Shown: positions 11,949 through 22,331 of the stretch, piece after piece
Position numbering within the stretch: the stretch's first letter is position 1
Layout: the number at the start of each line of letters is the position of its first letter
Origin: Nocardioides astragali
Lineage (GTDB): Bacteria > Actinomycetota > Actinomycetes > Propionibacteriales > Nocardioidaceae
NCBI RefSeq assembly: GCF_024436375.1
Contig: NZ_JAFMZM010000003.1
Coordinates: 143,627-207,626, forward strand
Direction of reading: 5' to 3'
Length of the DNA: 64,000 bases
Notes under the pieces: generated by a model
What the model was told of the DNA's origin: nothing
The model's input: the letters and a program-made list of their open reading frames with translations, nothing else
Database searches by the model: none
Made by a program: the position numbers and the translations under genes

Positions 11949-12389
11949 TCAGGCTCGCTCGAGCAGGAAGAGCGGGATCAGCCGGTCGGTCTTCTCCTGG
12001 TACGACGCGTACGTCGGCCAGGTCGCGACCGCGTGCTGCCACCAGTCCTCGCGCTCCTCACCGCTGAGCTCGCGCACGCGGTAGGTGTGCTTCTCCGCCT
12101 TGTCCTGGAGCTCCACCTCGGGGTGCTTGCGGTAGTTGTCCACCCAGGCGGGGTCCTTCGCGCGACCACCGTTCGAGGCGACCGCGAGGTAGGCCCCGTC
12201 GCGCTCGACCCGCATGACGGGGTTCTTGCGGAGGTTGCCCGAGGACGAGCCCACCGACGTGACGACCACGACCGGGTAGCTCGTGCCGGGCAGCGTGCCG
12301 CCCTTCTCCCCGTTGGTGGCCTCGTACTCCTCGACGTTCTTGCGGACCCATCCGGTCGCGCTCGGGGCATAGGTGCCAGTGAGTGCCAT
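11949..12389 (-). CDS. nitroreductase/deazaflavin-dependent oxidoreductase (Ddn-like)
   Basis: 146 residues, full length for the Ddn/F420-dependent quinone reductase family. Typical elements are GTLPGTSYPVVVVTSVGSSSGNLRKNPVMRVERDGAYLAVASNGGRAKDPAWVDNYRKHP, i.e. the split-barrel core with T-S-x-G-RxG-x-RKxP and the WY/WxxNxxAxP helix. Family members reduce quinones or xenobiotics using F420H2, and some bind FMN or haem instead. F420 dependence is inferred from the family. It is divergent from menB across a 141-bp region containing a long palindrome. An association with menaquinone protection is conceivable but not shown. Confidence 0.8.
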   Translation of the reverse strand: MALTGTYAPSATGWVRKNVEEYEATNGEKGGTLPGTSYPVVVVTSVGSSSGNLRKNPVMRVERDGAYLAVASNGGRAKDPAWVDNYRKHPEVELQDKAEKHTYRVRELSGEEREDWWQHAVATWPTYASYQEKTDRLIPLFLLERA

Positions 12390-12432
12390 GTCAGTCCCAA
12401 CGCCACGATCAGCGGCGATCTTCCACCGATAC

Positions 12433-12485
12433 CTGAGGACGTGGTGAACGTGTCGGGCTCCGGTTCCCGTTCACCACGTCCTCAG
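12433..12485. repeat. 18-bp perfect inverted repeat between divergent genes
   Basis: CTGAGGACGTGGTGAACG (12433-12450) is perfectly reverse-complementary to 12468-12485, with a 17-base loop. Terminators are not expected between divergently transcribed genes, so this is more likely a dispersed palindromic element or a regulatory site. It ends 33 bases before the TACGGT box of menB. Confidence 0.85.
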
Positions 12486-12530
12486 ATACCCGGGCGGAGC
12501 CGGTCGGGCCGACTCGATACGGTGCGGGGC

Positions 12531-13466
12531 ATGAGTGCGATCGAAGGCGTCAGCGAGATCTTCGACCCCGAGGCGTGGGACGCCGTTCCCGGCTTCGAGG
12601 ACCTCACCGACCTCACCTACCACCGCGCCCGCGAGCACGGCACGGTGCGGATCGCCTTCGACCGTCCCGACGTCCTCAACGCGTTCCGGCCGCACACGGT
12701 GGACGAGCTGCTGCGCGCGCTGGAGCACGCCCGTACGTCCGCCGACGTCGGGTGCGTGATCCTCACCGGCAACGGGCCCAGCGCCAAGAACGGGAAGTGG
12801 GCCTTCTGCACCGGCGGGGACCAGCGGATCCGTGGGCGCGCGGGCTACCAGTACGAGACCGAAGGCCACACCGACGCGGGCGCGGAACCGAACCCGATCG
12901 ACAAGGCCAGGCTGGCGCGGCTCCACATCCTCGAGTGCCAGCGGCTGATCCGCTTCATGCCGAAGATCGTCCTGTGCGTCGTCCCGGGCTGGGCCGCGGG
13001 CGGTGGGCACAGCCTGCACGCGGTGGCGGACCTGACCCTCGCCAGCCGCGAGCACGCCCGCTTCAAGCAGACCGACGCCGACGTCGGCTCCTTCGACGGC
13101 GGCTACGGATCGGCGTACCTCGCCCGCCAGGTCGGCCAGAAGTTCGCCCGCGAGATCTTCTTCCTGGGCGACGAGTACGACGCCGAGACGATGCACCGGA
13201 TGGGTGCGGTCAACCGGGTCGTCGACCACGCCGATCTGGAGCGCGAGGCGCTGGAGTGGGGCCGGAAGATCAACGGCAAGTCGCCCACTGCCCAGCGGAT
13301 GCTGAAGTACTCCTTCAACCTCCTCGACGACGGCCTGGTCGGCCAGCAGCTCTTCGCCGGCGAGACCACTCGATTGGCCTACATGACCGACGAGGCACAG
13401 GAGGGCCGCGACCAGTTCCTCGAGAAGCGCGAGCCCGACTGGTCGCCCTACCCCTGGTACTACTGA
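12531..13466 (+). CDS. menB: 1,4-dihydroxy-2-naphthoyl-CoA synthase (MenB)
   Basis: 311 residues of the crotonase superfamily. MenB hallmarks are present: VRIAFDRPDVLNAFRPHTVDEL, FCTGGDQRIRG (oxyanion-hole segment), CVVPGWAAGGGHSLH, DVGSFDGGYGSAYLARQVG and the signature C-terminus FLEKREPDWSPYPWYY. It cyclises O-succinylbenzoyl-CoA to 1,4-dihydroxy-2-naphthoyl-CoA in menaquinone synthesis. ATG at 12531 follows TACGGT (12518-12523) by 7 bases, and an SD is absent, suggesting a leaderless mRNA. No other men gene is in the window. Confidence 0.95.
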   Translation: MSAIEGVSEIFDPEAWDAVPGFEDLTDLTYHRAREHGTVRIAFDRPDVLNAFRPHTVDELLRALEHARTSADVGCVILTGNGPSAKNGKWAFCTGGDQRIRGRAGYQYETEGHTDAGAEPNPIDKARLARLHILECQRLIRFMPKIVLCVVPGWAAGGGHSLHAVADLTLASREHARFKQTDADVGSFDGGYGSAYLARQVGQKFAREIFFLGDEYDAETMHRMGAVNRVVDHADLEREALEWGRKINGKSPTAQRMLKYSFNLLDDGLVGQQLFAGETTRLAYMTDEAQEGRDQFLEKREPDWSPYPWYY

Positions 13467-13534
13467 ACCCTGCTCGCAGTCTGGTCGGCGCATTTTCGCT
13501 CGCCGCGGCCCCGGGACTGCGTGACTATGGGCGC

Positions 13535-14218
13535 ATGGATTGGGATGACGCGACTCGCGAGAGGCTCGAGACAGCGCTCAACGAGTCCGACGTGGTCGGA
13601 GTTCGGCTCGACCCCGCCGGTGCCCACGTCGACGTCCTGCTCCACGTGCTTGCACTGCCAGAGTCCGGCCCGCTCACGAAGGACGGTCGCCGGATCATGA
13701 GGCTCATGCGGCCTGCAGACCTTCGGTTCCTGCTGCGGCGAGATCCGGTCGGTGAGCAGGCGGCGGCCCAGCCCGCCATCCCTCTGGCTGACGAGGCTGC
13801 CGTCGAGGACTTCTTCGAATCGCTCGCCTGGGGTGGTTCCGTCTACGGCTGGCGATTCTTCGACGATCCGGGACTGACTCGTGACTGGTCAGCGGATCCG
13901 AGTCTCCGCATCTCGATCCGCTCCGGCGGCGGTGCGCACTCGTTCTTCTGGTTCAACGAGTGCGGCGTCGAGGGGGACGGTGACACCGAGTCCTTCTGCA
14001 TCGAGGGGACGGTCACCTTCGACGATCTTGTCGTGCTTGATGCCGCAGAGCATGAGATCCCCATCGAGACGTTCATCGCTGACGGAGTCCGTCAGTGGGA
14101 CGCCTTCTACGGGCATGACGAGCGCCTCAGCCTTGAGGCGCAGAGCGAGTCGCAGGAGGGCGCCCCGAGGTGGAGGAAATGGGCGGAGGGAGCCCAATCC
14201 GCCATCGGTCCGATCTGA
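13535..14218 (+). CDS. hypothetical protein, no recognised domain
   Basis: 227 residues from an ATG at 13535. No signal peptide or membrane segment. Trp-rich segments (LAWGGSVYGWRFFDD, SFFWFNECG) and a C-terminal acidic/aromatic part (VRQWDAFYGHDERLS) suggest a soluble globular protein. The sequence resembles the many actinobacterial hypotheticals of about 200 residues that sit beside lipoproteins, but I cannot name a family. It is on the same strand as menB and the lipoprotein gene that follows, with 88 bases to the latter. Confidence 0.6.
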   Translation: MDWDDATRERLETALNESDVVGVRLDPAGAHVDVLLHVLALPESGPLTKDGRRIMRLMRPADLRFLLRRDPVGEQAAAQPAIPLADEAAVEDFFESLAWGGSVYGWRFFDDPGLTRDWSADPSLRISIRSGGGAHSFFWFNECGVEGDGDTESFCIEGTVTFDDLVVLDAAEHEIPIETFIADGVRQWDAFYGHDERLSLEAQSESQEGAPRWRKWAEGAQSAIGPI

Positions 14219-14306
14219 TCGCGTGTCACTGAACCTTCCGCCTTGCTCGTCGCGTCATAGGAGTGACGGGAAGTTCCCGGCGCGGGGAGCAAGGGAGACC
14301 TGCGTC

Positions 14307-15053
14307 ATGCCACACCTCTCCACACCGATCCGCATCGCAGCACTCACGGCAACCGCGGTCCTCCTCACGTCGTGCAGTGACTCCGGAGGTGGCGACTCGG
14401 GCGGCGGCGACCCCCCGTCAGAGCCTTCACGTGACTTCGTCTCGGCGACCCGACTCACGGATGCGGCCGACGAGGCCACGCTCGCGCCCGGGCGCTACGC
14501 CATGGGGTTCGTCAGCCCCGAGCCCGACCCGCCGATGGTGCTGATCGAGGTCCCAGCGGGCTATCACGGCCGCGGAGACGGGTACGAGATCACGGGCGCC
14601 GACGAGAGCAGCGGCTTCCGCCACCTCGACACCTGGACCGTCGACGTGGTGGCGACCCGGGCGTGCGGAGACACCGAGTGGAAGGACCCCGGACCCAGCG
14701 TGGCCGATCTTGCCGACGCGCTCCGGTCCTTGTCGGTGTGGGAGACCACGCCTCCGGTGCCGGTGACCATCGGGGGGCACGAAGGCGTCTTCATGGAGCT
14801 CAACGTGCCTGCCCGCCTCCGCGGCGCCTGTCGTACCGAGCTGTCCAGCTGGCGCGACCACCTCGGGGGCTTTCAAGGGATCGGTGCCGGCAAGGCCCAG
14901 CTGCTGTGGATCGTGGAGGTCGATGGTCAACGCCTGATGCTCGTCGTCGGCTACTTCCCCGGTCCCAACGGCCCCAGTCCCCGCTTGGTCGCGGAGATGG
15001 TCGCCATGGCCGAAACGGCCGAGTTCGTCGATGCCGACCAGGTGGCACCCTGA
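14307..15053 (+). CDS. putative secreted lipoprotein
   Basis: 248 residues with a short Arg n-region, a hydrophobic core (AALTATAVLLTS) and lipobox LLTS|C at about residues 20-24, followed by a Ser/Gly/Asp linker. The mature domain contains two Cys (ATRACGDTEW and GACRTELSSW) that could pair, and hydrophobic strands near the C-terminus (LLWIVEVDGQRLMLVVGYF). It is predicted to be attached to the outer face of the membrane. AAGGGAGAC at 14291-14299 is a good ribosome binding site for the ATG at 14307. Function is unknown. Confidence 0.7.
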   Translation: MPHLSTPIRIAALTATAVLLTSCSDSGGGDSGGGDPPSEPSRDFVSATRLTDAADEATLAPGRYAMGFVSPEPDPPMVLIEVPAGYHGRGDGYEITGADESSGFRHLDTWTVDVVATRACGDTEWKDPGPSVADLADALRSLSVWETTPPVPVTIGGHEGVFMELNVPARLRGACRTELSSWRDHLGGFQGIGAGKAQLLWIVEVDGQRLMLVVGYFPGPNGPSPRLVAEMVAMAETAEFVDADQVAP

Positions 15054-15142
15054 CGGCGACTCGTGCCGCGCTGCCTGTCAGTGGCCAGGGCAGGCGGAAA
15101 CCTCGACGACGTCACGGCCGTGTCGCGACTAACGTCTGCCGC

Positions 15143-16060
15143 GTGACCGAAGAGAGCGACGTCGACGAGGGTCACCGAGCCCCTGCCATCGAGGGCTCGA
15201 CCGCTCTCCCGACCGGCTTCGACCACCCGCACGCGTCCGAGCAAGCCCGCCGGATCGCGGAGGACGGGATGATCCTCCGCGTCCAGGTCGGGTCCGGCGT
15301 CCACGGCACCTCGATCGACGGGCAGGACGACCGAGACGAGATGGGTATCTGCCTCGAGCCCGCTGCGTACGTCACCGGGCTCGCCCGAGTCCCCAGTGGC
15401 ACCCGCGGTGGCGCGGCGCCGATCCGGTTCGAGCAGTTCGAGCGGCACACTGGCTGGGACCGACCGGGCGGACTGGCGAACCGCTCGGGCCCGGGAGACC
15501 TCGACGTCATCGTGTACTCCGCGCGGAAGTGGGCCAGCCTCGCACTGGCCGGCAATCCCACGGTGCTGCTGGTCCTCTTCGTGCCCGACCACGAGGTCGT
15601 CCACCGCAACGAGGTCGGCGCCCGGCTCGTCGACAACGCACACCGGTTCGTCTCGAAGCTGGCGGCCGACCGGTTCCTCGGCTACCTCCGCTCGCAGAAG
15701 GCGGCGATGACCGGCGAGATCGGCGCGCACACCAACCGCCCCGAGCTCGTCGCGATCCACGGGTACGACACGAAGTTCGCCATGCACGCGCTACGCCTCG
15801 GCGTCCAGGGCGTCGAGCTCCTCACCACCGGGCGCATCACCCTTCCGATCCCCGAACCCGACCTGTCCTACCTGCGGGCGATCCGCCGCGGGGAGGTCGA
15901 GCTCGACGATGTCATCGCGGCGATCGACCGGGCCGAGGCGCGACTGGTGCGGCTCAGCGAGTCAGCATCCGTGCCCGACCAACCTGATCGGGACTGGGTC
16001 GATCAGTGGCTGCACGCGAGTCACGTGGACTACTGGGCTCGCACCCCTACCCCGGAATAA
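15143..16060 (+). CDS. nucleotidyltransferase (DNA polymerase beta superfamily, COG3541/YcgL-like)
   Basis: 305 residues from GTG at 15143, which follows TAACGT (15130-15135) by 7 bases. Near residue 48 the segment VQVGSGVHGTSIDGQDDRDEMGICLEP carries the GS-x-x-x-G nucleotidyltransferase motif with nearby DDRDE acidic residues for metal binding; later GDLDVIVYSARKW and LRSQKAAMTGE are also typical. This COG3541-type family is repeatedly found next to RNA-repair genes. Its reaction is not established; nucleotidyl transfer to an RNA end is an inference. It lies immediately upstream of the two structured RNAs and rsr on the same strand, so it is probably part of the RNA-repair island. Confidence 0.75.
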   Translation: MTEESDVDEGHRAPAIEGSTALPTGFDHPHASEQARRIAEDGMILRVQVGSGVHGTSIDGQDDRDEMGICLEPAAYVTGLARVPSGTRGGAAPIRFEQFERHTGWDRPGGLANRSGPGDLDVIVYSARKWASLALAGNPTVLLVLFVPDHEVVHRNEVGARLVDNAHRFVSKLAADRFLGYLRSQKAAMTGEIGAHTNRPELVAIHGYDTKFAMHALRLGVQGVELLTTGRITLPIPEPDLSYLRAIRRGEVELDDVIAAIDRAEARLVRLSESASVPDQPDRDWVDQWLHASHVDYWARTPTPE

Positions 16061-16065
16061 AACCG

Positions 16066-16096
16066 TTGCGCGCCTAGGTGTGTAGACCCCTACACT
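16066..16096 (+). promoter_or_regulatory. possible promoter for the Y RNA/rsr region
   Basis: TTGCGC (16066-16071) as -35 and TACACT (16091-16096) as -10, with a longer than usual 19-base spacer. Transcription would begin near 16103, just before the 5' strand of the first structured RNA. Assignment is by eye only. Confidence 0.35.
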
Positions 16097-16118
16097 CCTC
16101 AGGACAACACAACAGAGC

Positions 16119-16254
16119 GGCCCGCGTGGGCCGGAGATCGTCGGTTACCACTACGGATGGCCGGGTTGCGGGTTCGAGTCCCGTCACGACCTTCGGGTCG
16201 CGTAGCTCAATGGGTAGAGCAGGATTCGGCGATCACAACATGCCCACGCGGACC
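16119..16254 (+). ncRNA. yrlA: Y RNA with permuted tRNA-like module (YrlA type)
   Basis: A closing stem pairs CCGCGTGGGC (16122-16131) with GCCCACGCGG (16242-16251), perfect over 10 bp. A 4x7 internal loop follows (CGGA 16132-16135; ACAACAT 16235-16241). Next is an inner stem GATCGTCG (16136-16143) with CGGCGATC (16227-16234), with one G-U pair. Inside is a tRNA in circularly permuted order: a hairpin with 7-nt loop CTACGGA (16151-16157); a T-arm GCGGG-TTCGAGT-CCCGT (16168-16184); acceptor 3' strand CACGACC; a cUUCGg tetraloop (16192-16195); acceptor 5' strand GGTCGCG (one A-C mismatch); TA at tRNA positions 8-9; and a D-arm GCTC-AATGGGTA-GAGC (16205-16220). This is the known architecture of bacterial YrlA RNAs, which bind the Ro protein by the stem and mimic tRNA with the head. 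The rsr gene follows directly, supporting the call. Exact ends are uncertain. Confidence 0.82.
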
Positions 16255-16287
16255 CTCCGGACGGCTTGCCCGTCCACACCGTCACGA

Positions 16288-16395
16288 GAGTGGCGGGCCG
16301 GAGCGGATCGGTTATCTCCCTCTCACGGAAGCCCTCGGAGGAGGGCACCCCGGGAATCCGGGGTCCGGTCGGTCCGCACAGCTCGCCCGCCACTC
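16288..16395 (+). ncRNA. second Y RNA-like RNA with the same Ro-stem and a different head
   Basis: GAGTGGCGGGC (16288-16298) pairs perfectly with GCCCGCCACTC (16385-16395). As in the first RNA, a 4x7 internal loop follows (CGGA 16299-16302; ACAGCTC 16378-16384), then an inner stem GCGGATCGG (16303-16311) with TCGGTCCGC (16369-16377), all nine positions pairable including G-U. The head lacks T- and D-arms. It holds two hairpins, GCCCTC-GGAG-GAGGGC (16331-16346) and ACCCCGG-GAAT-CCGGGGT (16347-16364), the latter a 7-bp stem with a 4-nt cap like the capped acceptor of RNA 1. The motif GGGC-CGGA-G and the reciprocal C-ACAnCnn-GCCC are shared with RNA 1. It may be a separate transcript or part of the rsr 5' leader. 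Confidence 0.6.
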
Positions 16396-16451
16396 CCGGA
16401 CGGCACGCACCTGACCCAGGGCCACGGCTCATGACGACGAAAGGAACGACG

Positions 16452-18047
16452 ATGGACGTGCTGCGCGCCTTCAACCTGCGCCGCACCGAGCAGACCTCCC
16501 GTGCTGACCGGCGCCAGCGGAATAACTCCGCCGGCGGCTACACCTTCACGCTGGACGACTCGGCGCGGCTGCGCCGGTTCCTCATGCTCGGCGTGGACGG
16601 CGGGACCTACTACGCCGCTCCTCGGCAGCTCGTGGCCGAGAACGTCGAGGTCCTGGTCCGCATGGCCGAGTCCGAGCCGGAGGCCCTGGTCTCCACCATC
16701 GTCGACGTCTCCACCCGCGGCGCCGCGCCGAAGCCGAACCCGGTGCTGTTCGCGCTGGCGTACGCCGCCTCGGTGCCCGAGTCCTCGGCACTGGCCCTGG
16801 CGGCGCTGCCCCAGGTCGCCCGCACGGGAACGCACCTGTTCCTGTTCGCGACGTACGTCGAGCAGTTCCGCGGCTGGGGACGAGGCCTGCGGCGGGCGGT
16901 CGCCTCCTGGTACACCGACAAGGAGCCAGACGCCCTGGCGTACCAGGCGGTGAAGTACCGCCAGCGCGAGGGCTGGAGCCACCGCGACCTGCTGCGGCTG
17001 GCACACCCGGTCTCGACCGTGCCCGAGCTCAAGGACACTTATGCGTGGATCGTCAACGGCTCGGTGGGCGACCAGGTCCCGGCTCTGATCGAGGGCTTCG
17101 TCCAGGCGCAGTCCACCACCGAGGTGGCGGAGTGGGTGCGGCTGGTGCACGCGCACCGGCTGTCCTGGGAGATGCTCCCGGACGCGGCGCTCGGCGAGAC
17201 CGCGGTCTGGAACGCGCTGCTGGACGTGGGTGTGCCCCAGACGGCGCTGATGCGCCAGCTGCCGCGGCTGACGCGCCTGGGCTTGCTGCCGGACATCGGT
17301 GGCCGGACCGACGAGGTGTCCGAGCAGCTGGCCGACGCGGCGCGCCTGCGCAAGGCGCGGGTGCACCCGGTGAACGTGCTGGTCGCGCAGCGGACCTACG
17401 CCTCGGGGCAGTCCGCCCGCGGTGCCGGCACGTGGTCGCCGACGCAGACGGTCGCCGACGCGCTGGACGCTGCGTTCTACGCCGCGTTCGGGGCGGTGGA
17501 GCCTTCAGGCAAGCGCACCCTGCTCGCGGTCGACGTGTCCGGCTCGATGGGAGTGCCCATCTCGGGCCTGCCGATCACGGCGCGGGAGGCGTCGGCGGCG
17601 CTGACCCTGGTGCAGCTGGCCACCGAGCCGTACGCGTCGGCGGTCGGGTTCACGACGGGTTCCGGCGGCGACTGGCACCACTCGGTGCTGAAGCCGCTGA
17701 GGATCTCGCCGCGGCAGCGGCTCGACGACGCCCTGCGCGTCGTGGACGCGATGCCGATGTCGGGGACGGACTGTGCGCTGCCGATGGTCCACGCGACGAG
17801 GAAGCGGCTCGAGGTCGACACGTTCGTGGTCTACACGGACAACGAGACCTGGGCGGGCGACATCCACCCGCACCAGGCGCTCGAGGCCTACCGGCAGGCG
17901 TCGGGGATCGCGGCGAAGCTCGTGGTCGTCGGCATGACGGCGACCGAGTTCTCGATCGCGGACCCCACGGATGCCGGCATGCTCGACGTCGTTGGCTTCG
18001 ATGCCGCGGCGCCCTCGTTGATCACCGAGTTCGCTCGTGGGATCTGA
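16452..18047 (+). CDS. rsr: TROVE-vWA protein, bacterial Ro60 orthologue (Rsr)
   Basis: 531 residues. The N-terminal two thirds is a HEAT-repeat TROVE ring: FNLRRTEQTSRADRRQRNNSAGGYTF, then YYAAPRQLVAENVEVLVRM, PNPVLFALAYAAS and HLFLFATYVEQFRGWGRGLRRAVASWY. The C-terminal third is a von Willebrand A domain with the MIDAS segment AVDVSGSMG at about residues 357-365, the MIDAS Thr in SGTDCALPM and TDNETW near 462. Ro proteins bind Y RNAs and misfolded RNA and, in Deinococcus and Salmonella, work with PNPase in RNA degradation and stress survival. ATG at 16452 is chosen over the ATG at 16431 because AAAGGAA (16440-16446) is optimally spaced for it. Two Y RNA-like genes lie immediately upstream; small HTH, hen1 and pnkp follow. 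Confidence 0.93.
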   Translation: MDVLRAFNLRRTEQTSRADRRQRNNSAGGYTFTLDDSARLRRFLMLGVDGGTYYAAPRQLVAENVEVLVRMAESEPEALVSTIVDVSTRGAAPKPNPVLFALAYAASVPESSALALAALPQVARTGTHLFLFATYVEQFRGWGRGLRRAVASWYTDKEPDALAYQAVKYRQREGWSHRDLLRLAHPVSTVPELKDTYAWIVNGSVGDQVPALIEGFVQAQSTTEVAEWVRLVHAHRLSWEMLPDAALGETAVWNALLDVGVPQTALMRQLPRLTRLGLLPDIGGRTDEVSEQLADAARLRKARVHPVNVLVAQRTYASGQSARGAGTWSPTQTVADALDAAFYAAFGAVEPSGKRTLLAVDVSGSMGVPISGLPITAREASAALTLVQLATEPYASAVGFTTGSGGDWHHSVLKPLRISPRQRLDDALRVVDAMPMSGTDCALPMVHATRKRLEVDTFVVYTDNETWAGDIHPHQALEAYRQASGIAAKLVVVGMTATEFSIADPTDAGMLDVVGFDAAAPSLITEFARGI

Positions 18048-18405
18048 GCGTCCAGGAGGCACAGGCGGCGCCGGAGCCGATCCCCTCAGGGGGGTCGGCC
18101 TCCGGCGCCGTACTGGTTCCAGGTCCGGATCGTCCACCGCGGACGCGCGTGCCGCCCGTGCCCGCGAGCTGCACCGCAAGGCAGCCGAAGCCGACCAGCT
18201 GGCCGCACGCAGCCGCGCCGAACGCGATCGGCTCCTGCTCCAGCTCCGCGCGGAGGACCCGGGGCGATGGAGCTACACAGCGCTGGCGGAGGCGATCGGC
18301 TGCAGTCGCGAGCTGATCGCCCTGGTGATCAAGCGACAACGCGGAAGCGCAGAACGCCCCTCGAGCAACGACAGGAAGGAAATGCCCGGACCCCGGGCAG
18401 ACTGA
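18037..18405 (+). CDS. small coiled-coil/HTH protein between rsr and hen1
   Basis: 122 residues from a GTG overlapping the rsr stop by 11 bases; no other in-frame start lies before the conserved part. The first 40 residues are Gly/Arg-rich and coincide with a long DNA hairpin (18067-18109), so they may not be structured. Residues about 45-75 (ARARELHRKAAEADQLAARS-RAERDRLLLQL) form a charged helix likely to coil. Residues about 80-105 (WSYTALAEAIGCSRELIALVIKRQRG) look like a helix-turn-helix. It could be a local regulator or RNA/DNA-binding partner of the RNA-repair genes; no family is recognised. The opposite strand ORF looks like a shadow. Confidence 0.5.
   Translation: MGSERPGGTGGAGADPLRGVGLRRRTGSRSGSSTADARAARARELHRKAAEADQLAARSRAERDRLLLQLRAEDPGRWSYTALAEAIGCSRELIALVIKRQRGSAERPSSNDRKEMPGPRAD
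18067..18109 (+). terminator. strong GC hairpin just after rsr
   Basis: GGCGCCGGAG (18067-18076) pairs with CTCCGGCGCC (18100-18109); inside, CCGA/TCGG and CCCC/GGGG add pairs around a 5-base loop, with two single-base bulges. It starts 19 bases after the rsr stop. There is no T-tract, and it lies inside the 5' end of the small HTH ORF, so it could be a partial terminator, an attenuator, or an mRNA processing and stability element. Confidence 0.55.
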
Positions 18406-18409
18406 GCCA

Positions 18410-19822
18410 GTGCTGCTGACCGTCACCACGACCCACACCCCGGCGACAGACCTGGGCTACCTGCTGCACAAGCATCCCGACCGGGTGCAGGAGTTCAAGC
18501 AGTCGTTCGGCACGGTGACGGTCTTCTACCCCGAGGCGACCCGGGAGCGGTGCACCGTCGCGCTGGCGCTCGACGTCGACCCGCTGCGGCTGGCCAGGTC
18601 CCGCACCAAGAACGCTCCGGACTTCAGCCTCGCCCAGTACGTCAACGACCGGTCGTACGCCGCGTCGTCGCTCCTCGCCGTGGCGATGGCCGACGTGTTC
18701 AGCACCGCGCGAAGTGGCCGCTGCGACTCGCGCCAGGAGCTCGCGGACTCGGCCATCCCGTTGGAGATCGTGATCCCGGTGCTCCCGTGCCGGGGTGGCC
18801 CTGAGGTCGCGCACCGGCTGTTCGAGCCGCTCGGCTGGACGGTGGAGGCGGAGCCGATCCCGCTCGACGACGCGTTCGCCGAGTGGGGCGACTCGCGCTA
18901 CGTCCGGCTGCGGCTCACCGGTCTCGTACGACTCGCCGACGCGCTGAACCAGCTCCACGTCCTGCTTCCGGTGCTGGACGAGTCGGAGCACTACTGGCAG
19001 GGCCCGGACGAGGTCGACAAGCTGATGCGGTCCGGGGAGGGCTGGCTCGCGTCCCACCCCGAGGCGGACCTCATCACCCGCCGCTACCTCGGTCGCCGCG
19101 GTGGACTCACTCGCGTGGCGCTGGCGCGCCTGGCGGAGCTGGGCGACGAGGTCGAGGACGCTGTCGAACCGTCGGAGGACGAGGAGGTCCTGCAGCCGGA
19201 GGAGAAGCGCGTCCCGCTCAACACCCAGCGCCACGAAGCGGTCCACCAGGCACTGCTCGACCTGGGCGCGCGGTCCGTGATCGACCTCGGTTGCGGCCCG
19301 GGCCAGTTCCTCGACCGGCTCGTGAAGACCCCTGCCTTCACCCGCATCGCCGGAAGTGACGTCTCCACCCGGTCGCTCCAACACGCCGCCCGCCGCTTGC
19401 GCGTGGAACGGATGAGCGAGCGGCAGGCCGAGCGCGTACAGCTGTTCCAGAGCGCCCTCACCTACGAGGACGAGCGTTTCGCCGGCTTCGACGCCGCGGT
19501 GCTCATGGAGGTCGTCGAGCACGTCGATCCTCCGCGGCTGGAGGCGCTCGAGCGCGTCGTGTTCGGAGCCGCCCGGCCGGGTGCGGTCGTCGTGACCACA
19601 CCCAACGCCGAGTACAACGCGCTCTACGAAGGGCTCGTCGGGATGCGGCACCCCGACCACCGGTTCGAGTGGACCCGCGCCGAGCTTGGCGACTGGTCGG
19701 ACCGCGTCGCCTCGACCTACGGCTACCAGGTCGAACGGCGAGGCATCGGCGATCTCGACGAGACACTCGGCAACCCCACGCAGATGGCGATCTTCACCAG
19801 GAAGGAGGACAGCGATGACTGA
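18410..19822 (+). CDS. hen1: 3'-terminal RNA ribose 2'-O-methyltransferase Hen1
   Basis: 470 residues. The bacterial-type Hen1 layout is clear. The N-terminal domain opens MLLTVTTTHTPATDLGYLLHKHPDRVQEF, includes YVNDRSYAASSLLAVAMADVFSTA and is the part that activates the Pnkp ligase. The C-terminal SAM methyltransferase has VIDLGCGPGQFLDRL at about 289 (motif I), ALTYEDERFAGFDAAVLMEVVEHVDPPRL at about 367 (the ExxEH metal-binding motif of Hen1) and VVTTPNAEYN. It methylates the 2'-OH at the 3' end of the broken 5' RNA fragment before Pnkp seals it, protecting against renewed cleavage. The start is a GTG 5 bases after the HTH gene. Its last 8 bases overlap pnkp, whose SD GAAGGAGGAC lies inside hen1. 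Confidence 0.95.
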   Translation: MLLTVTTTHTPATDLGYLLHKHPDRVQEFKQSFGTVTVFYPEATRERCTVALALDVDPLRLARSRTKNAPDFSLAQYVNDRSYAASSLLAVAMADVFSTARSGRCDSRQELADSAIPLEIVIPVLPCRGGPEVAHRLFEPLGWTVEAEPIPLDDAFAEWGDSRYVRLRLTGLVRLADALNQLHVLLPVLDESEHYWQGPDEVDKLMRSGEGWLASHPEADLITRRYLGRRGGLTRVALARLAELGDEVEDAVEPSEDEEVLQPEEKRVPLNTQRHEAVHQALLDLGARSVIDLGCGPGQFLDRLVKTPAFTRIAGSDVSTRSLQHAARRLRVERMSERQAERVQLFQSALTYEDERFAGFDAAVLMEVVEHVDPPRLEALERVVFGAARPGAVVVTTPNAEYNALYEGLVGMRHPDHRFEWTRAELGDWSDRVASTYGYQVERRGIGDLDETLGNPTQMAIFTRKEDSDD

Positions 19823-22331
19823 GGCACCCAAGCGCCAGGTCACGCTGCCCGCCATGGGACTGGTCGTCCTCGTGGGCGTGTCCGGGAGCGGCAAGTCGAC
19901 CTTCGCACGCACCCACTTCAAGCCCACCGAGGTCGTCTCCAGCGACTTCTGCCGGGGCCTGGTCGCCGACGACGAGAACGACCAGTCGGCCACGCCCGAC
20001 GCCTTCGACGTCCTGCACTACATCGTCGGCACACGGCTGCGCCGCGGCCTCCTCACCGTGGTCGACGCCACCAACGTCCAGAAGCCCGACCGAGCGTCCT
20101 TGATCAAGCTCGCCAAGAGCCACGACGTACTGGTCGACGCTGTCGTCATCGACGTCCCGGACTCCGTCGCGATCGAGCGCAACGAGCGGCGCGCGGACCG
20201 CAACTTCGGCAGCCACGTCATCACCCGGCAGCACCGCGACCTCAAGCGATCCATGGCGCGCCTCACCAAGGAGGGCTTCCGTCGGGTCCACGTCCTCCGG
20301 GGGACCGACGAGGTCGATGCCGTCGAGATCGTCCGCGAGCGTCCGTGGAACGACCGCAGGGATCTCCACGGCCCCTTCGACCTCATCGGGGACGTCCACG
20401 GCTGCGCCTCCGAGCTCCGCACGCTCCTGAGCGAGCTGGGCTGGAAGATCGACTACGACGGCACTGCCGCGGTCGACGCCACCCACCCCGACGGACGTCA
20501 GGCCGTCTTCGTCGGCGACCTCGTCGACCGCGGGCCCGACACGCCCGGCGTGCTCCGCCTCGTCATGGGGATGGTCGCCTCCGGCAACGCGATCTGCGTG
20601 TCCGGCAACCACGAGGCCAAGCTCGTGCGTGCCCTCAAGGGCTCCAAGGTGACCGTCTCCCACGGGCTGGCGGAGTCCCTCGCCCAGCTGGAGGCCGAGC
20701 CGGAGGAGTTCCGCGCGCAGGCACTGGGCTTCATGGACCGGCTCATCAGCCACTACGTCCTCGACGACGGCAGGCTCGTGGTGGCCCACGCCGGGCTCAA
20801 GGAGTCCTACCACGGCAGATCCTCCGGGCGCGTCCGCTCCTTCGCCCTCTACGGCGACACGACGGGCGAGACCGACGAGTACGGCCTGCCGGTCCGCTAT
20901 CCGTGGGCCCAGGACTACCGGGGACAGGCGATGGTCGTCTACGGCCACACTCCGGTCCCGAAGGCCGAGTGGGTCAACAACACGATCTGCCTCGACACCG
21001 GCGTCGTGTTCGGCGGCGCCCTGACGGCCCTGCGCTACCCCGAGCGGGCGATCGTGTCGGTCCCGGCCGAGAAGGAGTGGTACGAGCCGGTTCGCCCGCT
21101 CGTCCCCGCTGTCGGCGATCGAGAGCCGGCGGTGCTGAGGATCAGCGACGTCGCCGGCACGCGCTGGCTGGAGACCACGCATGCCGGCAAGGTCAAGGTC
21201 CCGGAGGAGAACGCCGCGGCCGCGCTCGAGATCATGAGCCGGTTCGCGGTGGACCCACGGTGGCTGGTCTACCTCCCGCCCACGATGTCGCCGGTCGCGA
21301 CCTCGACGCGCGAGGGGTTCCTCGAGCACCCTGAGCAGGCCTTCGAGGAGTACGCCGGCTGGGGTGTCACCCGGGTGGTGTGCGAGGAGAAGCACATGGG
21401 CTCGCGCGCCATCGCTGTCATCGCCAAGGACGCCGATGCCGCCGAGCGGCGGTTCGGGGTCGGCGACGGCACCGCGGGCGTGGTCTACACCCGCACCGGT
21501 CGCCCCTTCTTCGCGGACACCTCCGAGCTCGTCGACCGGTTGCGCACGACTGCTGCTCCGTTGTTCGAGTCGCTGGACACCGACTGGCTCGCGCTGGACT
21601 GCGAGCTGCTGCCGTGGTCGGCCAAGGCGCTCCCCCTCATCAAGGTCCAGTACGCCTCCGTCGGTGCCGCGGCCCGTCGGGTGCTGCCCGAGGCGCTGGA
21701 CGTCCTGGAGAGCGCGAAGCGCCGAGGGCTCGACGTCGAGGCGCTCATCGCGAAGACCGTGCGGCGGCGCGACAATTCCGAGGCCTTCCGCGATGCGTAC
21801 GCCGCGTACGTCCGTCCGACCGACGGCCTGGACGGTGTCACGCTCGCGCCGTTCCAGATCCTCGCGTGCGAAGGCCGCGCCCTCGCCCTCACGGAGCCCC
21901 ACGACTGGCACCTCGCCGAGCTGGCCAAGCTGGAGGGCGATCTCATCACGCCGACGCGGCACCGCTTCGTCGACCTGTCCTCACCCGAGGAGCGCGACGC
22001 CGCAACCCAGTGGTGGCTGGACCTCACCGCGTCCGGCGGTGAGGGGATGGTCGTCAAGCCGGCTCACCTCACCGAGGGCCGTGTCCAGCCGGGCATCAAG
22101 GTGCGTGGTCGCGAGTACCTTCGGATCATCTACGGCCCGGACTACACCGACTCCCTCGACGTCCTGCGCCAACGGCACCTCGGCAAGAAGCGCCAGCTCG
22201 CGCAGCGTGAGCACGGACTGGGCCTGGATGCGCTCTCCGCCTTCGTCGACCACGAGCCACTGTGGAAGGTGCACCAGGCCGTGTTCGCCGTCCTCGCGCT
22301 GGAGTCCGAACCCGTCGACCCGCGGCTCTGA
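19815..22331 (+). CDS. pnkp: polynucleotide kinase-phosphatase-ligase (Pnkp)
   Basis: 838 residues, the full three-domain enzyme. The kinase has P-loop VGVSGSGKSTFA at about residues 20-31. The binuclear metallophosphatase has GDVHGC (about 192), GDLVDRGPD (about 234) and GNHEAK (about 264). The C-terminal adenylyltransferase/ligase has CEEKHMGSRA near 525, in which the Lys is the adenylation site, plus LDCELLPW and EGMVVKP as downstream ligase motifs. It heals 2',3'-cyclic phosphate and 5'-OH ends and, with Hen1, seals broken tRNA-like RNAs. All catalytic motifs look intact. It is translationally coupled to hen1 and ends the island. Confidence 0.96.
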   Translation: MTEAPKRQVTLPAMGLVVLVGVSGSGKSTFARTHFKPTEVVSSDFCRGLVADDENDQSATPDAFDVLHYIVGTRLRRGLLTVVDATNVQKPDRASLIKLAKSHDVLVDAVVIDVPDSVAIERNERRADRNFGSHVITRQHRDLKRSMARLTKEGFRRVHVLRGTDEVDAVEIVRERPWNDRRDLHGPFDLIGDVHGCASELRTLLSELGWKIDYDGTAAVDATHPDGRQAVFVGDLVDRGPDTPGVLRLVMGMVASGNAICVSGNHEAKLVRALKGSKVTVSHGLAESLAQLEAEPEEFRAQALGFMDRLISHYVLDDGRLVVAHAGLKESYHGRSSGRVRSFALYGDTTGETDEYGLPVRYPWAQDYRGQAMVVYGHTPVPKAEWVNNTICLDTGVVFGGALTALRYPERAIVSVPAEKEWYEPVRPLVPAVGDREPAVLRISDVAGTRWLETTHAGKVKVPEENAAAALEIMSRFAVDPRWLVYLPPTMSPVATSTREGFLEHPEQAFEEYAGWGVTRVVCEEKHMGSRAIAVIAKDADAAERRFGVGDGTAGVVYTRTGRPFFADTSELVDRLRTTAAPLFESLDTDWLALDCELLPWSAKALPLIKVQYASVGAAARRVLPEALDVLESAKRRGLDVEALIAKTVRRRDNSEAFRDAYAAYVRPTDGLDGVTLAPFQILACEGRALALTEPHDWHLAELAKLEGDLITPTRHRFVDLSSPEERDAATQWWLDLTASGGEGMVVKPAHLTEGRVQPGIKVRGREYLRIIYGPDYTDSLDVLRQRHLGKKRQLAQREHGLGLDALSAFVDHEPLWKVHQAVFAVLALESEPVDPRL

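Follow-up and report, generated by a model that had tools for sequence, protein, structure and literature searches.

Bacterial Y RNAs are already known to lie beside rsr, to occur in multiple copies and to carry tRNA-like domains (PMC4726728, PMC7790460, PMC8394870). Chen et al. 2014 and Wang et al. 2018 are reported to describe bacterial Y RNAs and YrlA. The relevant sections of PMC8394870 describe D, T and acceptor arms only. The Ro-binding motif of bacterial Y RNAs is GNCGAA(N)G. In D. radiodurans the partner of the Y RNA is PNPase (PMC4726728). Nematode sbRNA is a homologue of vertebrate Y RNAs, while bacterial Y RNAs are described in the same paper as not homologous with the vertebrate clades (PMC4726728). 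The Salmonella rsr-yrlBA-rtcBA operon brings together Rsr, RNA-repair enzymes and two Y RNAs, namely YrlA with a tRNA-like domain and YrlB (PMC7790460). Hen1 and Pnkp-type enzymes also form part of the Pnkp1-Rnl-Hen1 complex, which mends ribotoxin-cleaved RNA (PMC4411300).

The locus described here lies in a 64,000-nucleotide stretch of the Nocardioides astragali genome (the window) and carries two RNAs, RNA 1 and RNA 2, before rsr. As in YrlA (RF02553), they adjoin rsr and have a Ro-binding basal stem, and at least one of them shows T, D and acceptor arms. However, both have an anticodon-like hairpin after the motif UUAYC, and the RF02553 consensus has none there. Nematode sbRNA (RF01656) is similar in its CGGA loop, its 9-base inner strand followed by UUAUC and its 3' strand with ACCAAC. 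The grouping of Rsr, two Y RNAs and RNA-repair enzymes is that of the Salmonella operon, but in this locus rsr comes after the Y RNAs, and the repair genes found are rlaP, hen1 and pnkp; the search for RtcA, RtcB and RtcR was limited to the nine window frames profiled. Hen1 and Pnkp-type enzymes are shared with the Pnkp1-Rnl-Hen1 complex, whereas hen1 and pnkp are linked to rsr only in the window and in two other loci (L003 and L019).

All genes of the locus are on the forward strand. The RNA-repair nucleotidyltransferase gene rlaP (15143–16060; PF10127, 84.2 bits) is followed by RNA 1 (16122–16251), RNA 2 (16288–16395), rsr (16452–18047), the RNA 3'-end 2'-O-methyltransferase gene hen1 (18410–19822; TIGR04074, 682 bits) and the kinase-phosphatase-ligase gene pnkp (19815–22331; TIGR04075, 1331 bits), whose start is inferred within the open frame 19686–22331. 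Rsr, the Ro60 orthologue, is a full-length TROVE-vWA protein supported by both profile and structure matches. It scores 514.7 bits with NF041674, below the cut-off of 900, and its best PDB matches are D. radiodurans Rsr (2nvo, E 4.3e-120) and RO60 (9nen, E 8.6e-100). Between rsr and hen1, a small open frame (18037–18405) shows weak HTH and MRP-L20 matches below the Pfam cut-offs. Rsr is rare within the genus, any match occurring in 7 of 196 Nocardioides genomes and a full-length one in 5, this genome included. Each of these five loci (the window, L003 = L085, L019 = L084, L086 and L087) has at least two Y RNAs.

The repair genes are not a constant feature of rsr loci. Among 82 other loci, L003 matches all three window repair proteins, L019 matches Hen1 and Pnkp, and L068 has a hen1 match 4.8 kb away; the remaining 79 give no match in the flanks searched. 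These flanks are mostly 4–5.6 kb and some are shorter; at L086 and L087 they are only 1.5 kb, too short for hen1 to have come into view. A general linkage of rsr to RNA repair is rejected for the flanks searched, with hen1 and pnkp both near rsr in L003 and L019 only. Ten neighbouring frames from six other loci were mixed, five of them without a Pfam match. At the Cellulomonas iranensis locus L005 (927–3623), a DnaB helicase with an intein and a LAGLIDADG domain is found upstream of rsr.

A perfect palindrome, GTGTAG-ACCC-CTACAC, is located before RNA 1 at 16080–16095. The pattern GTGTAG-N4-CTACAC has a single exact copy in the genome. It is present with 0 of 12 mismatches in 13 of 83 rsr loci, the window among them, and allowing up to 2 mismatches raises the number to 29 of 83, of which a few are probably chance matches. 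Perfect copies start about 35–65 bases ahead of a Y RNA's CGRA loop. The palindrome is possibly an operator, with its regulator unidentified. A scan around it found no consensus sigma-70 promoter, and a scan of 16000–16480 found no terminator on the forward strand.

RNA 1 is closed by a 10-bp outer stem, CCGCGTGGGC/GCCCACGCGG, in which 16122–16131 pairs with 16242–16251. Next is an internal loop of CGGA (16132–16135) facing ACAACAT (16235–16241), and then a 9-bp inner stem between 16136–16144 and 16226–16234. The UUAYC motif follows as UUACC (16145–16149). Its last two bases open the anticodon-arm-like hairpin CCA-CUACGGA-UGG (16148–16160, loop 16151–16157), so that the inner stem is succeeded by UUA, the hairpin, CC, GGGUU and the T-arm mimic GCGGG-UUCGAGU-CCCGU (16168–16184). 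The acceptor-stem mimic, capped by a UUCG tetraloop, occupies 16185–16202. A UA resembling U8-A9, a D-arm mimic and an A resembling position 26 complete the domain (16203–16221).

RNA 2 has the same basal design and no T or D arm. Its outer stem is 11 bp, GAGTGGCGGGC/GCCCGCCACTC (16288–16298 with 16385–16395), its internal loop pairs CGGA (16299–16302) against ACAGCTC (16378–16384), and its inner stem is again 9 bp (16303–16311 with 16369–16377). UUAUC (16312–16316) is followed directly by the anticodon-arm-like hairpin UCC-CUCUCAC-GGA (16317–16329, loop 16320–16326) and by two apical hairpins (16331–16363), which are mostly kept among relatives, with the first absent from L007. The coordinates and the stem and loop layout of both RNAs agree with the original prediction, which had given the inner stems as 8–9 bp. 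That prediction was silent on the UUAYC motif, the tRNA-like domain of RNA 1, the anticodon-like hairpins and the RNA-repair genes; it was incomplete rather than wrong.

Under the usual tRNA numbering, RNA 1 reads as a class I tRNA that is circularly permuted and cut between positions 26 and 27, an order that is likely but inferred from sequence alone. In this layout the Ro stem would be inserted between positions 26 and 27, and the domain would run as anticodon-like arm, 5-base variable region, T arm, tetraloop-closed acceptor stem, U-A, D arm and A. The T arm agrees at 17/17 positions with that of tRNA-His and that of tRNA-Asp in the same genome, the UA, D arm and A are 18/19 identical to tRNA-Lys(UUU), and the loop CUACGGA equals the anticodon loop of tRNA-Arg(ACG). 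As the T arm, D arm and loop are nearest to different tRNAs, RNA 1 is a mosaic and not a copy of one tRNA. RNA 2 would retain only the anticodon-like hairpin of a tRNA, beside two plain hairpins; its loop CUCUCAC equals the anticodon loop of tRNA-Glu(CUC) of this genome. An intramolecular partner for the triplet was sought and rejected, the best six column triples pairing fully in at most 6 of 19 RNA 1 relatives.

Both RNAs fold more stably than their shuffles, with z-scores of −2.26 for RNA 1 and −4.16 for RNA 2. The RNA 2 hairpin is present in both the MFE and centroid folds, with a pair probability of 0.52–0.57 in the thermodynamic ensemble. For the RNA 1 hairpin this probability is 0.01, and the permuted-tRNA fold lies 5.4 kcal/mol above the MFE. 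The RNA 1 hairpin is unstable by energy rules and would therefore need tertiary or protein support.

No family model accepts either RNA at its cut-off. RNA 1 scores 40.5 bits with RF02553 (gathering cut-off 69), and RNA 2 gives no match to this model at E 1. The nematode sbRNA model RF01656 (ceN72-3_ceN74-2) gives 29.5 bits for RNA 2 and a weak 23.1 bits (E 0.42) for RNA 1, both under the cut-off of 38. Seven other loci were searched with RF01656. It exceeds its cut-off in the Chloroflexota locus L080 (39.8 versus 38), falls short of it in L074, in L056 and twice in L016 (E 0.2 and 0.47), and has no match in L068, L081 and L014. The block common to RF01656 and the bacterial RNAs is CCGGAG...GGUUAUC plus the AC-rich strand before the outer stem. 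It may represent one Ro-docking module, with homology and convergence not separated. ARAGORN finds no tRNA gene in the window, and RF00005 has no match at E 1 in 12000–22000. Elsewhere, five RF00005 tRNA matches directly precede the Y RNA and rsr on an Anaerolineae contig (L081, 1592–2347), and one lies just before the Y RNA cluster of L074. Three features of bacterial Y RNAs are present, in that the RNAs adjoin rsr, have the Ro-motif basal stem with one transition and, for RNA 1, carry a tRNA-like domain. RNA 1 and RNA 2 are thus likely bacterial Y RNAs; their transcription and Rsr binding are inferred, without expression or binding data.

The 22-base 5' module GGGCCGRAGNNNNTCGGTTAYC, with up to 2 mismatches, matches the 5.17 Mb genome twice on the forward strand and never on the reverse, and these two matches are RNA 1 and RNA 2. 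The reversed control pattern has 0 forward and 2 reverse matches. Recurrence was counted in 83 loci. Of 116 rsr loci on genome contigs the 80 best were taken, and the window, L086 and L087 were added to them; L084 and L085, which repeat the contigs of L019 and L003, and the partial matches L088 and L089 were dropped beforehand. A structural descriptor (outer stem, CGRA-like loop, inner stem, UUAYC and a 3' loop of 5–9 bases; RNA 1 scores 21.1) gives 156 matches at a score of at least 17 in the 98,321 bases upstream of rsr. The opposite strand gives 1, and ten block shuffles average 0.0. Downstream of rsr, 293,127 bases give 9. The cut of 17 was chosen with the controls in view; at 15 the counts are 189 upstream, 11 on the opposite strand, a shuffle mean of 7.3 and 37 downstream. 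At least one match at 17 lies upstream of rsr in 66 of 83 loci and none in the other 17, with 0 to 5 copies per locus. Loci in which the module adjoins rsr bear the labels Actinomycetota, Chloroflexota, Armatimonadota and others, and viral contigs have it as well. The paired RNAs with their shared outer stem, CGGA/seven-base loop and inner stem are real and not a product of chance.

Among 54 actinomycete loci with at least 900 bases upstream (L032 was excluded for too little upstream sequence), 46 have two or more copies, 5 have one and 3 have none. The last three are L020, L059 and L087. The stretch searched in L059 may be coding, because its rsr match starts at residue 61, and L087 was scored on the wrong strand; its other strand has two Y RNAs with scores of 17.9 and 16.9. 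Copies were typed by simple text patterns for the T loop and D arm. The first copy has both (T+D) in 34 of the 46 multicopy loci. The copy nearest rsr is of this type in 2; in 22 it has the T arm alone, and in another 22 it has neither. A second Y RNA class, in which UUAUCUGGYAU is followed by a T arm without a D arm, is seen in L010, L012, L015, L034, L042 and others. On viral contigs with rsr (L249–L311) as many as six Y RNAs are present, and five of these loci have them downstream of the gene.

UUAUC or UUACC occurs in 134 of the 156 copies from genomes and in 104 of the 123 from viral contigs. These motifs and the 5' consensus raise the descriptor score, so the 5' profiles are partly built in. 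The letters of the 3' loop carried no weight, and there a C three bases before the outer stem is found at 97% in 95 seven-base loops. CGAA itself is found in 43 of the 156 copies.

Covariation supports the helices in both families. Among 21 RNA 1 sequences, the window included, 98.1% of cells are paired and 19 of 37 pairs have changed on both sides; for 9 RNA 2 sequences, again with the window, the values are 95.0% and 9 of 35. None of 500 shuffles reached either count, and further pair types in the RNA 2 set are not above shuffles (352/500). Helices 1 and 2 of each set are the outer and inner stems. Neither set was chosen neutrally. Pairing in both Ro stems is a condition of the descriptor, the T+D label used for the RNA 1 set itself requires T-loop and D-arm text, and this set was picked from 56 listed copies largely for showing the hairpin frame. 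The freest RNA 1 helix is the acceptor stem (helix 5), in which 98.2% of cells are paired and both sides have changed in 4 of 6 pairs. The hairpin stem of the RNA 2 relatives, which was not selected for, pairs in 74.1% of cells.

The original prediction had proposed CGGA/ACAnCnn as the Ro recognition module; this is supported, with Rsr binding inferred and the 3' strand corrected to ACNNC(A/U)(C/U). Its reading that rsr directly follows the RNAs held, by the NF041674 and PDB matches, as did its covariation-like stems between the two RNAs, by covariation among the relatives of each. Its failure to see the published bacterial motif did not stand, since GCCGGAG is GNCGAA(N)G with A changed to G once. 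A lack of stem and loop conservation at orthologous rsr loci would have refuted it; this was looked for, and 65 of 82 loci outside the window conserve the architecture.

The central observation is the hairpin after UUAYC. It was first noticed on the apical sequences of the genome set and tested afterwards, with Y RNAs sharing the same 25 apical bases counted once (nonredundant). A 3-bp stem on a 7-base loop is present in 92 of 147 nonredundant genome RNAs, compared with 32.0 in shuffles. Loops of 8 and 9 bases are also raised (57 and 56), and those of 4, 5, 6 and 10 are near background (26, 27, 39 and 34). When the 7-base loop must start with CU, the count is 49 of 147 versus 2.09 in shuffles (maximum 6 of 200). 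The hold-out consisted of 64 loci, 63 on viral contigs plus L241, which is not viral. The descriptor has 123 matches there; the opposite strand has 2, shuffles average 0.0, and 15 of the 64 loci have no match. L241 was read unoriented in these counts; three copies are present on its other strand, scoring 18.3, 20.1 and 15.5, and all of them lack a CU hairpin. In this hold-out the CU hairpin is found in 27 of 116 nonredundant RNAs versus 1.21 (maximum 5 of 500). If any loop start is allowed, 7-base loops number 50 (shuffles 19.5, maximum 30), and the excess of 9-base loops is almost as great, at 44 (shuffles 19.2, maximum 29).

A letters-only test gives the same picture. Loops were picked as CTNNNR, and complementarity of their flanks was then asked. 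The flanks are complementary in 40 of 48 loops of the genome set (re-paired 13.4, maximum 22 of 5000) and in 22 of 37 of the hold-out (re-paired 5.6, maximum 13), versus 17/179 and 19/177 when the other 15 dinucleotides replace CT. With distinct flank pairs counted once, the values are 12/20 versus 3.0 (maximum 8) and 12/26 versus 3.1 (maximum 9). Two additional RNAs in L315 show UCA-CUCCGAA-UGA and UCC-CUGACAC-GGA, the latter one base beyond the tested offsets. The CU hairpin is missing in 187 of 263 Y RNAs, 37 of the 71 T+D types included, and is kept by 42 of the 192 not of this type. The anticodon-arm criterion (a closed 7-base loop with U second and mostly a purine sixth) is met for the group and for the window loops, although RNA 1's hairpin is weak in energy terms. 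The hairpin is thus likely a selected anticodon-loop mimic, with C32, U33, mostly purine 37 and three closing pairs, a judgement made from sequence alone. No anticodon-like element is mentioned in the open-access literature searched, nor in the relevant sections of PMC4726728, PMC7790460, PMC8394870 and PMC9569102. It may be new to that literature; key papers lie outside it and an earlier notice is not excluded.

The loops resemble those of real tRNAs beyond the window. This genome yields 45 tRNA matches with 43 distinct loops, and 11 of 34 distinct Y loops equal one of them (7.2 with positions 37–38 permuted, P 0.02). A pooled set of 55 distinct loops came from five actinomycete genomes, four of them incompletely covered. 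Against it, 14 of 34 loops match in the genome set (P 0.003) and 10 of 21 in the hold-out (P 0.02). For both sets together the count is 21 of 51, against 13.1 with positions 37–38 permuted, and 0 of 20,000 permutations are as high; the other 30 equal no pooled tRNA loop. Actinomycete loops joined with text-frame loops from four Cellulomonas loci match in 14 of 30 (P 0.00015). The sequences are related, so these P values are guides only. Loops copied from a tRNA of their own genome are both window loops and that of RNA 2 in L004. Exact copying as a rule fails for the RNA 1 loop in four other genomes, for which 33–37 distinct tRNA entries each, from 45–55 matches, form incomplete sets. In L004, L008 and L051 the tRNA with RNA 1's anticodon was recovered and its loop is different, and in L041 no such tRNA was recovered from the incomplete set. 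Avoidance of equal triplets by tandem copies was also considered; 0 of 22 within-locus pairs are equal against an expectation of 0.87, which is not significant.

Among relatives of RNA 1, the triplet and the base after it are among the most variable positions. The frame GUUAYCACU-N5-UGG retrieves eight RNA 1 genes from Nocardioides and Cellulomonas. Their entropy is 1.56, 1.41, 1.81 and 1.56 bits across positions 34–37 and 0.54 bits at position 38. L086 and L087, the other two such loci, lack this exact frame. Positions 34–37 are among the six highest of 45 columns, position 35 being tied with the last CGRA-loop base and one inner-stem base. The frame columns are fixed by the search, and most of the 22 preceding columns are constant of themselves. 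Across all loci, 19 different five-base cores are seen among the 26 loops that fit the frame. Positions 34–37 could be under diversifying selection, with no rate test behind this claim.

The two Y RNA genes precede rsr, and we propose that each RNA docks on Rsr through its outer stem, CGGA/ACNNCNN internal loop and inner stem. Docking is inferred because of the stem and loop conservation and the neighbouring gene. The apical part would be the effector end. The pair would gate the Ro ring of Rsr and show a tRNA-like, anticodon-bearing face to a tRNA-handling protein, which may be PNPase, a repair enzyme or an anticodon nuclease. The anticodon-like loop would add a motive for tRNA mimicry, in the nucleases and repair enzymes that act on anticodon loops. 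The RNA anatomy, the covariation, the loop statistics and the presence of Rsr and repair genes alongside are shown. The explanation as a whole, with Rsr docking, a permuted tRNA and a selected anticodon mimic, is likely; transcription, binding, partner and function are inferred.

Three other explanations can be considered. The one that survives best holds that the hairpin is a generic U-turn read for its shape by Rsr or PNPase, with an incidental tRNA likeness. This remains possible, though rather unlikely: the hairpin directly follows the Ro-binding stem, its conserved positions are those of a U-turn, and exact tRNA matches are a minority of distinct loops (21/51). Against it, positions 37–38 track the triplet as in real tRNAs beyond permutation, and a shape element gives no reason for the high variability at 34–37. 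A second explanation takes these as ordinary Y RNAs in which the hairpin is a passive relic of tRNA descent without its own function. The close resemblance of the T, acceptor and D parts of RNA 1 to tRNAs of this genome and the absence of the hairpin from 187 of 263 Y RNAs speak for it. It is nevertheless unlikely. In a relic, C32, U33 and purine 37 should decay as fast as the triplet, but the closing pairs compensate, CU-start loops are in large excess while the triplet varies, and 42 of 192 non-T+D RNAs keep the hairpin. Finally, an attenuator or structured 5' UTR of rsr would fit the position directly upstream of rsr and the absence of a forward-strand terminator in 16000–16480, but it is very unlikely, as each RNA is closed by its own perfect outer stem, copy number ranges from 0 to 5 with copies downstream of rsr in five viral-contig loci, and both RNAs match Y RNA models.

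The selected anticodon mimic on an Rsr-docked RNA remains the preferred reading, and a bolder form of it can be stated, which as a joint claim we lean against. Y RNAs would include whole-tRNA mimics, anticodon included, held by Rsr as variable baits, a decoy role that is inferred. The bait loops would copy tRNA loops cut by toxins or phage-defence nucleases, the Ro particle would draw off the nuclease or sense the cut and pass the RNA to the adjoining repair enzymes, and phages would carry the same baits.

A selected anticodon loop with a variable triplet would make the purpose of the tRNA-like part of Y RNAs directly testable, and it would tie Ro60 particles to tRNA damage and repair. Both RNAs are suggested to be tRNA stand-ins beside RNA-repair genes. 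They may offer a handle on an RNA class common with animals, in which Ro60 is a lupus autoantigen.
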